The position numbers and the translations under genes were made by a program. Under the pieces are notes generated by a model that saw only the letters and a list, made by a program, of their open reading frames with translations, ran no database searches and was not told the DNA's origin. DNA of 33,878 bases from TM7 phylum sp. oral taxon 352 (GTDB lineage Bacteria > Patescibacteriota > Saccharimonadia > Saccharimonadales > Saccharimonadaceae): assembly GCA_007845355.1 (NCBI GenBank), contig SDRQ01000007.1, forward strand, positions 1 through 33,878, in the 5' to 3' direction. The first letter of the stretch is position 1. Every line of letters begins with the position of its first letter. Of the stretch, positions 14,840 to 16,878 are shown in pieces.

Positions 14840-15016
14840 TCCTTTCTTTGATTGAGTTAATTTGTTATGTGCCAATTTGTTAACGTGCGGTAATGGAGAA
14901 TCAAAAAACGTCTTTGATTCTCGCACTACCAAAGACGTCAAATAAAACTGTTAGTTTCATCCCTCGGTGGCATTTTTATACTTGTTTTACGCCAAGTCGC
15001 CACTGTCTTTGGTAAT
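14840..15016 (-). ncRNA. L10 leader (ribosomal protein L10 autoregulatory RNA)
   Basis: Minus-strand RNA between the promoter and rplJ. The closing helix pairs ACCAAAGACAG (15013-15003) with GACGTCTTTGGT (14939-14928). Inside are GTGGCGAC, GCCACCGAGGGATGAAAC and the kink-turn-like arrangement typical of the L10 leader family. The 3' arm of the closing helix is also the 5' arm of the terminator at 14903-14938, so the two structures exclude each other. L10 (with L12) binding the leader would decide the outcome. Confidence 0.85.
14903..14938 (-). terminator. attenuator hairpin in the L10 leader
   Basis: CGTCTTTG and CAAAGACG form a perfect 8-bp stem followed by TTTTTT on the minus strand. It lies about 70 nt before rplJ. 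Confidence 0.88.
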
Positions 15017-15026
15017 GTTCCAGACC

Positions 15027-15055
15027 ATTGTAGCAGAAATGACAACGAAAGACAA
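15027..15055 (-). promoter_or_regulatory. rplJ-rplL promoter
   Basis: TTGTCT, 17 nt, TACAAT. Transcription would begin near 15020, just before the L10 leader. The -35 lies immediately after the stop of the WhiB-like gene. Confidence 0.8.
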
Positions 15056-15067
15056 GAGTTATGGTGA

Positions 15068-15394
15068 TTATTTTCCAGCCGATTCAATCGCTTTATTTAT
15101 TGCATTTTCGCCTAATCGTAATACTCTTCTGCGTTGAGCGATGGTTTTGCCTCCCCAAATTCCATATTCTGCAGATTCTGGGTGGCGGAGCGCATATTCT
15201 AAGCATTGTTTTAATACTGGGTATTTTCGGCACATATCTATGGCAGCTTCCGCGGCTTCTGTCTTTCTGGCACCTCTTAAATCTTGGTCTGGAACATTTG
15301 GGTTTATTTGGAAAAACAAGCGATCAGCTTCTTTGGCGGACAGTTCCGCGCATTTAGCGCCTTCTAATAGACTCTCGTTATTTAATTCTGACAT
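15068..15394 (-). CDS. WhiB-like protein with three of four cluster cysteines
   Basis: Protein of 108 aa that aligns through its length with the Wbl family of actinobacterial Fe-S transcription regulators: KCAE and ADRLFF (Cys15), then DMCRKYPVLKQCLEYAL (Cys55, Cys64), the turn EYGIWGGKT (78-84) and basic QRRRVLRLG. In Wbl proteins the second block is CxxCPVxxxCL; here the middle cysteine is Tyr58, so only three of four 4Fe-4S ligands remain. The ATG at 15394 was chosen because TTGATT-17-TAAAAT ends 7 nt before it; an upstream in-frame ATG at 15451 would read through the promoter. In Actinobacteria these proteins contact the sigma factor. Presence in a CPR-like genome suggests transfer from an actinobacterial host. 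Confidence 0.88.
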   Translation of the reverse strand: MSELNNESLLEGAKCAELSAKEADRLFFQINPNVPDQDLRGARKTEAAEAAIDMCRKYPVLKQCLEYALRHPESAEYGIWGGKTIAQRRRVLRLGENAINKAIESAGK

Positions 15395-15401
15395 ATTTGT
15401 T

Positions 15402-15430
15402 ATTTTACAATAATAACGTAATAAAATCAA
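15402..15430 (-). promoter_or_regulatory. promoter of the WhiB-like gene, leaderless type
   Basis: TTGATT, 17 nt, TAAAAT, 7 nt, ATG. It follows a terminator, so the gene has its own transcript. Confidence 0.85.
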
Positions 15431-15451: not shown

Positions 15452-15481
15452 AGAGAAAACCCGCTCCGTGATGGAGCGGGT
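15452..15481 (-). terminator. terminator of the adhesin gene
   Basis: CCCGCTCC and GGAGCGGG form an 8-bp stem with a 5-nt loop followed by TTTTCTCTTT on the minus strand. Confidence 0.88.
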
Positions 15482-15573: not shown

Positions 15574-16878
15574 TTACCTCTCCGAGTGTGCCGTCTGACG
15601 ACGGCGCGCCCAAATGAGGAAGCCTCCGAGAGCCACTAGCGCGACCGCGCTGGTGACTACGTCTCCACTTGTACCAGTGACCGCCAGCTTCTTGTGCTGG
15701 GGTGCTGGTGTGGGGATAGCCGAGGGCGTAGGCTCCTTATACCGTTCAATAACGGGAGTGGGGAGCGGAGGCTTACGCGTGGGCGTCGTGCTCGGACTCG
15801 GAGTCGGTGTCACCGACGGGGTCGTGTTCGGCGTGGGTGCCGACGGTGTTGTCGACGGGCTCGGTGCCGACGGACTCGGTTCCGGTGTGGGCACGGGGCT
15901 CGGCTCCGGGGTTGGAGTCGGTTCCGGCGTGGGTGCCGGAGTCGGAGTCGGCGTCGGTGTAGGAGCAGGTGTGGCACCGTCTCCATCAGTTCCGCCGTCG
16001 ACCTTCACGTCGATCGTACGCTCGAGCTTGAGACCGTTGACCGTTGCGACATTCGTGACAGTCTTTGCGCCAGCAGGAGTGGCCATGGGCTTAGGCGTGT
16101 AGGTCACGCAGACCTTGGCATCCTTGGGAGCAGTTGCCTTGATGGTGTTCGCGTCGACGAACTCTGCGTCTGCGTAAACCGTCGTCTCGGGATCCCAAGT
16201 GGCACCAGTCGTGCACTTAACACCAGCGCTGAGCTCAGTGTACTCGTCGTGAATGGTGTAGACAGTACCGGGCTCGGCAATCCAGGTGATCATCCAGGAC
16301 GTCGTTCCGTCCGGGTTGGTCCACCCCCACTTTGAATTTTCGGGGGTGGCGTCCTCATAGTGACCACCCGAGCAGTCACTATCACAGGTTCCGTCTCCGT
16401 CCTTGTCGCCGAAGGTGAACGGGTAGACCTTGCCGTTCAGCGTGATCTCACCCGTCTTCTTGCCGACGGCAGTCTTCTGGATGCGAGCGCTGGTCCACCA
16501 CGTGCCGGAAATATCGGTCTTGTCCGCGATGGAGGCCGGGACGTTGTCCACAGAGCACGTAAGTGTGCCCTTGTCAGCCTTGCAGGAGCCGATCTTGTCG
16601 CCGGAATCCACCGTAAACGGGAAGTCGTACGCCCAGTTGATGACGTCGGACGTAACCGTGAAAGTCTGTCCGACCTCGAGCTTCTCGGTAGACCAAGTAC
16701 CCTTGACAGTCACAGGTGACGAGACCTGGGAGCCGCCCGAAGAGATGGCGGTGATCTTGGCGGTGATCTTGGCGGTGTTGGCGGCTCGTGTTGCGCCTCC
16801 GAAGAGGAACGATACGAGAATCGCGACGAAGGCTGCCACGATCGAGACTCTCAACGGAGTCCTGTTTCGGTTACGCAT
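15574..16878 (-). CDS. LAVTG sortase-anchored adhesin, actinobacterial type
   Basis: Secreted wall-anchored protein of 434 aa. Residues 1-33 are a signal peptide ([19 protein letters not shown]). About 34-170 resemble the Ig-like adhesive domain of MSCRAMM proteins in Gram-positives ([50 protein letters not shown]). [12 protein letters not shown] is a calcium-loop-like segment. Residues about 300-395 are a long Pro-Thr-Ser-Glu stalk, then LAVTG, a hydrophobic helix and ARRRQ. LAXTG signals are used by class E sortases of Actinobacteria. The gene is markedly GC-rich with C-ending codons, unlike its neighbours, indicating transfer. A strong Shine-Dalgarno (AGGAAGGA) and a 105-nt leader precede the ATG. 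Confidence 0.85.

Follow-up and report, generated by a model that had tools for sequence, protein, structure and literature searches.

The window, a stretch of 33,878 nucleotides from TM7 phylum sp. oral taxon 352, carries a gene for a WhiB-like (Wbl) protein in which one of the four cluster cysteines is replaced by Tyr. This wbl gene lies on the minus strand at 15068..15394, with its ATG start codon at 15394 and its stop at 15068, and encodes a 108-amino-acid-residue protein with a Whib domain (PF02467). Since the protein has three of the four cysteines that are invariant in the family, we file it as a variant related to the Wbl family and not as a canonical [4Fe-4S] Wbl. The most likely reading, which we favour tentatively, is that the gene encodes a real, divergent WhiB3-like regulator whose cluster is weakened or absent; gene decay or a single-base artefact ranks second, and a cluster held by three cysteines with a substitute ligand third.

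The WhiB-like identity of the product, which had been predicted from the letters of the sequence, was supported by a Pfam profile, a sequence search of the PDB and the predicted fold. The Pfam Whib profile matched the product with 43.1 bits (E 6.4e-11), above the gathering cut-off of 23.6 bits, and so placed it in the Whib family; a profile search of the whole 636 kb source assembly found the domain only this once. The match begins at residue 22, so that Cys15 is outside the matched part. WhiB3 was the best match in the PDB sequence search (E 1.2e-6). An AlphaFold model built from 24 aligned class members had a mean pLDDT of 81 and was weak before residue 40, the N-terminal third being of low confidence. 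When it was compared with the PDB by Foldseek, all 13 matches were Wbl complexes, the first nine with a probability of 1.00; WhiB3 headed the list, with TM-scores by target of 0.80-0.84 for the first three. Chance similarity of a 108-residue protein to the Wbl family is ruled out.

The cysteines are Cys15 (codon at 15350..15352), Cys55 (15230..15232) and Cys64 (15203..15205), and Tyr58 (codon TAC, 15221..15223) stands where the third cluster cysteine would be, all on the minus strand. These positions agree with the original prediction, as does the GIWGG turn at residues 78-82 (15149..15163), which represents the G[V/I]WGG motif and includes Trp80, the equivalent of WhiB1 W60. Cys15, Cys55, Cys64 and Gly81 are invariant columns in the 24-sequence alignment, and for this reason Cys15 is presumed to be ligand 1; Cys55 and Cys64 correspond to ligands 2 and 4. 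Alignment of the class members also identified Phe27-Phe28 (15311..15316) as the equivalents of WhiB1 F17/F18. Both Phe residues, Trp80, the glycines and the basic helix are kept in the window protein.

Like Mycobacterium WhiB3 and Streptomyces WhiD (class III; PDB 8cyf, 8cwr, 8cwt), its best PDB match by both sequence and fold, the window protein has an RG...T element equally far from the CxxC position, the GIWGG turn, the FF pair and a basic C-terminal helix. The RGxxxT preceding the second cysteine aligns without gaps with RGRART of WhiB3, and R40 and K44 occupy the aligned places of class III Arg38 and Arg42, one identical and one conservative (Lys at the R42 equivalent). Unlike WhiB3 and WhiD, the window protein is found outside Actinobacteria, has Tyr for the third cysteine and has no Trp N-terminal of Cys15, where this subclass has an invariant Trp17 before the first cysteine. 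It also differs by a loop between Cys15 and the FF pair that is four residues longer than usual, and by a two-residue insertion ahead of GIWGG. The Cys1-to-FF spacing of one four-cysteine class member (L115) equals that of the window protein. Mycobacterium WhiB1 (5oay, 6ono) shares with it the Wbl fold, the FF and W contact residues and the CxxC...C spacing. At the rpoD locus, many class members are of the Streptomyces WhiB type (8dy7, 8dy9), to which the window protein does not belong and with which it shares distant similarity only (E 4e-5).

Tyr is a rare ligand. WhiB1 needs all four cysteines for its cluster, whereas the window protein has three, and WhiB1 C40A, altered at the position matching Tyr58, loses the cluster (A420/A280 of 0.04 against 0.35) (PMC3390391). 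In WhiD, substitution of any cysteine gives a null phenotype (PMC6282962). We regard it as quite unlikely that the window protein holds a real Fe-S cluster on three cysteines and a non-cysteine ligand, such as Tyr58, an Asp or Glu of the long loop, or water, and acts as a more labile or redox-shifted sensor. The family does offer precedents for three-cysteine function or a partial cluster: WhmD (WhiB2) of M. smegmatis requires three cysteines and an Asp, and the phage protein WhiBTM4 retains some cluster as C36S or C45S (PMC3390391). Those three-cysteine forms are laboratory substitutions, however, and the dispensable cysteine of WhmD is the first, whereas the window protein has lost the third. 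Some cluster supply exists in the source genome, as its sole radical-SAM protein found, NrdG, encoded next to NrdD (L276, G000 C10), needs a [4Fe-4S] cluster, so that the organism must obtain at least one. Against such a sensor, neither SufBD nor an IscU/NifU scaffold was found in the source assembly, which is 85% complete and lacks 15% of the genome.

The gene occupies the gap between rplA (ribosomal protein L1, 17075..18112) and rplJ (ribosomal protein L10, 14310..14834), which is followed by rplL (ribosomal protein L7/L12, 13867..14244); all are on the minus strand. An L10 leader RNA (Rfam RF00557, 54.1 bits) at 14894..15030, also on the minus strand, separates wbl from rplJ downstream, and rplJ-rplL is therefore under its own control. 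On the other side, a predicted terminator of the upstream gene (15459..15481, minus strand) parts that gene from wbl. A predicted promoter, TTGATT-17-TAAAAT (15402..15430, minus strand), ends 7 nt before the ATG, and a transcript from it would probably be leaderless. Taken alone this prediction is weak, with two such promoters found in the region and 1.7 expected by chance. This leaderless layout precedes 14 of 147 Wbl genes of the class, compared with 2.6 expected by shuffling, and a similar arrangement precedes the wbl gene of a genome of the same genus, G050. The window wbl therefore looks like a unit of its own dropped into a variable gap. Within the genus, the gap measures 3.5 kb in G050, where it holds another Wbl; in G052 it is 1.2 kb long and contains an unrelated ORF, and in G244 and G351 it is shorter than 0.5 kb. 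The G050 Wbl (L035:5940-6265) differs from the window's, its reading frame breaks close to a stretch of six C, through either sequencing error or decay, and it is flanked by two similar-looking ORFs.

The upstream neighbour (15574..16878, minus strand), outside the wbl unit, encodes a Pro/Thr-rich, secreted-looking protein with an LAVTG-type C-terminus that gave no Pfam or NCBIfam match. The gene has a G+C content of 61% and a GC3 of 0.71 in a window of 44% G+C.

The L1, L10 and L12 proteins of the window are 82-96% identical to those of G050, which flank a Wbl there too, and on these identities we judge the contig to be chromosomal and native to the lineage. Contamination is ruled out by the same ribosomal-protein neighbours. 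The base composition of wbl (G+C 0.425, GC3 0.32) is the same as that of its own genome and is not actinobacterial; together with the frequency of the family in the class, this rules out an isolated recent transfer. A phage or plasmid gene is likewise rejected: plasmids gave no match, phages a single weak one, and matches in viral contigs were just 36-49% identical.

We compared 149 Wbl proteins, the 148 collected and that of the window. The pattern C-x2-C-x5-C with an upstream cysteine was present in 141. Five of the eight exceptions come from ORFs that are short or truncated; in one of these (L076) Tyr replaces the second cysteine. Two others (L071 and L096) probably show shifted spacing only. 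The window protein is the sole apparently complete member with a substitution of the third cysteine. No orthologue with Tyr58 was found in 394 family genomes, the named genomes or viral contigs, so the alignment at this position across sister genomes, proposed with the original prediction, revealed no shared Tyr58. As the protein has no close homologue, Tyr58 rests on a single base of a metagenome-assembled genome in 38 contigs, and purifying selection and fixation of Tyr58 cannot be shown.

It is conceivable, if somewhat unlikely, that the substitution is non-functional, through decay of the gene or because the TAC at codon 58 reflects strain variation or a consensus error of the assembly (TGC read as TAC); the true protein of the lineage would then be an ordinary four-cysteine Wbl or an incipient pseudogene. 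TAC and TGC differ by one base, the change is a singleton in an incomplete, fragmented assembly and is seen in one apparently full-length protein of the 149, and the variability of the rplA-rplJ gap with the broken frame of the G050 Wbl suggests that the cell may be able to do without a copy in this place. However, the window ORF is intact and has a predicted promoter and terminator spacing, and the residues at the contact positions and the glycines are retained. In addition, the longer Cys1 loop, the missing Trp and the two-residue insert accompany the changed cluster site, which is unlike one random error.

Wbl proteins were taken to be restricted to Actinobacteria in the original prediction, and reviews call the family exclusive to that group, with four invariant cysteines (PMC6282962; PMC7363131). 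This restriction does not hold: a profile search found the Whib domain in 110 of 393 genomes (28%) and in 77 of 152 genera of the window's class, and several of the positive genomes are highly complete single contigs. A draw of 380 genomes from across the phylum gave 18 positives, every one of them from this class. The window gene is thus neither an isolated transfer nor exceptional in its lineage, half of whose genera have the domain. We found no report of Wbl proteins in Saccharibacteria, Patescibacteria, CPR or TM7 in the open-access literature, the scope of our search, with subscription papers and preprints outside it; database annotation may already name Wbl proteins of the class.

The highest domain identities of class members are 89% to Streptomyces WhiB, 80% to WhiB1, 62% to WhiB3 and 60% to WhiB4, the 89% and 80% examples coming from fragmented assemblies; two members in syntenic chromosomal contexts (L040 and L066) are 84-86% identical to Streptomyces WhiB. 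To judge from these identities, several actinobacterial Wbl types (resembling WhiB, WhiB1, WhiB3 and WhiB4) occur in the class, and repeated transfer from actinobacterial hosts would be the simplest reading for the group. The suggestion that the window gene is a transferred host regulator is therefore plausible for the group, with its several actinobacterial types; for the window gene itself it gains no support, as the base composition matches the source genome. A Wbl phylogeny (84 columns, 170 rows) left 98 forks open and the window protein unplaced, so that we claim no number of transfers; the domain is too short for a tree to demonstrate repeated transfer. Single genomes also contain arrays of two to four adjacent Wbl genes (L078:4141-5888, L124:3010-5983 and L089). 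In other members the Wbl domain is fused to 150-900 extra residues (L147, L151, L084, L066 and L041), and one fused Wbl carries a MarR-like helix-turn-helix.

In the window's family, no more than about 6 kb separate wbl from rpoD or polA in 24 of 34 Wbl-bearing genomes, and both genes were on the examined stretch in 23. The usual order is dnaG-rpoD-(kinase, on the opposite strand)-wbl-polA, as seen at L036 and L038-L069, the identities of dnaG, rpoD and polA having been verified by NCBIfam. Within the genus of the window, G244 has wbl in the dnaG-rpoD-polA neighbourhood. The same neighbourhood is kept without wbl in G050, G351, G377 and G395, and no remnant of a canonical wbl was detected between rpoD and polA in genomes of the genus that lack the gene there. 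The window wbl is off this locus. As the rpoD region is absent from the source assembly, a second, canonical Wbl in the source organism is possible.

The proximity to rpoD suggests that these Wbl proteins act on the cell's own sigma factor, since the Wbls of known structure bind to region 4 of sigma. That the window Wbl acts on its own sigma factor, as was also suggested, has indirect support from its rpoD-linked relatives, but the window copy itself is not at the rpoD locus. The sigma C-terminus in the class reads LRKHKDAKK, and His516-Pro517 of the actinobacterial sigma C-terminus is not kept in place; the Wbl-sigma interface in the class would therefore have to differ. In the actinobacterial proteins, WhiB1 F17/F18 contact sigma region 4 and loss of sigma His516 abolishes WhiB3 binding (PMC10245118), and sigma binding needs the cluster (PMC7363131).

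For the favoured divergent regulator, we propose a mechanism by analogy with these structures. The protein would be a WhiB3/WhiD-like Wbl native to its CPR class, and it is expected to use Phe27, Phe28 and Trp80 to dock on region 4 of the primary sigma factor of its own cell. The basic residues R40 and K44 and a C-terminal RRR helix are expected to touch promoter DNA, with a change in promoter choice. With Tyr for the third cysteine and no stabilising N-terminal Trp, the protein most likely has little or no hold on the O2/NO-sensing [4Fe-4S] cluster and acts as a weakened or cluster-independent regulator. As the actinobacterial Wbls need the cluster for sigma binding, the known route to sigma might be closed to a protein without one. 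The analysis itself establishes the family relation, the fold, the cysteine loss, where the gene lies and how its relatives are distributed; the binding of sigma and DNA, the state of the cluster and the function are inferred.

Cluster supply concerns the whole group. The profile search found SufBD above the cut-off in none of the 110 Wbl-bearing genomes; the 58 class genomes with SufBD all lack Wbl, with zero overlap among 393. This exclusion is strong by genome (p 1.4e-9) and modest by genus (Fisher p 0.027), since just five genera have SufBD, and shared ancestry could explain the association. Among 80 Wbl-bearing genomes tested, IscU/NifU_N was found in none and a radical-SAM protein was absent from 62. 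Nearly all Wbl-bearing genomes have a class-V aminotransferase; it is probably IscS, which also serves in tRNA thiolation. The Wbls of the class, including the window's with its three-cysteine site, would on this evidence be candidates for binding zinc or another single metal, as nearly all of them keep four cysteines in genomes without scaffolds. We consider this very improbable: domains 84-89% identical to the cluster-binding Streptomyces WhiB argue for the same cofactor, and the Wbl/SufBD exclusion is weak by genus. A broader view, which we hold to be fairly doubtful, is that a large, unreported CPR branch of Wbls sits beside rpoD in scaffold-less cells and uses another metal, a cluster assembled without a scaffold or supplied by the host, or none, and that the window member gave up a ligand.

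The window protein is a variant of the known Wbl family that, as read from this one assembly, has lost the third cysteine, and the mechanism given for it is a proposal. Wbls, said in reviews to be Actinobacteria-only, are widespread in one class of bacteria that are very small and probably depend on a host, occur there in several actinobacterial types and are often linked to rpoD. This distribution bears on transcription control in reduced genomes and on the exchange of genes between epibionts and their actinobacterial hosts. Given the absent SufBD and IscU/NifU scaffolds, how clusters are loaded is a question for the whole Wbl-bearing group, and the missing genes open to direct test the idea that a Wbl can fold and dock on sigma in the absence of a [4Fe-4S] cluster. 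With its three ligands, the window protein would be a natural test case for such cluster-less Wbl function.
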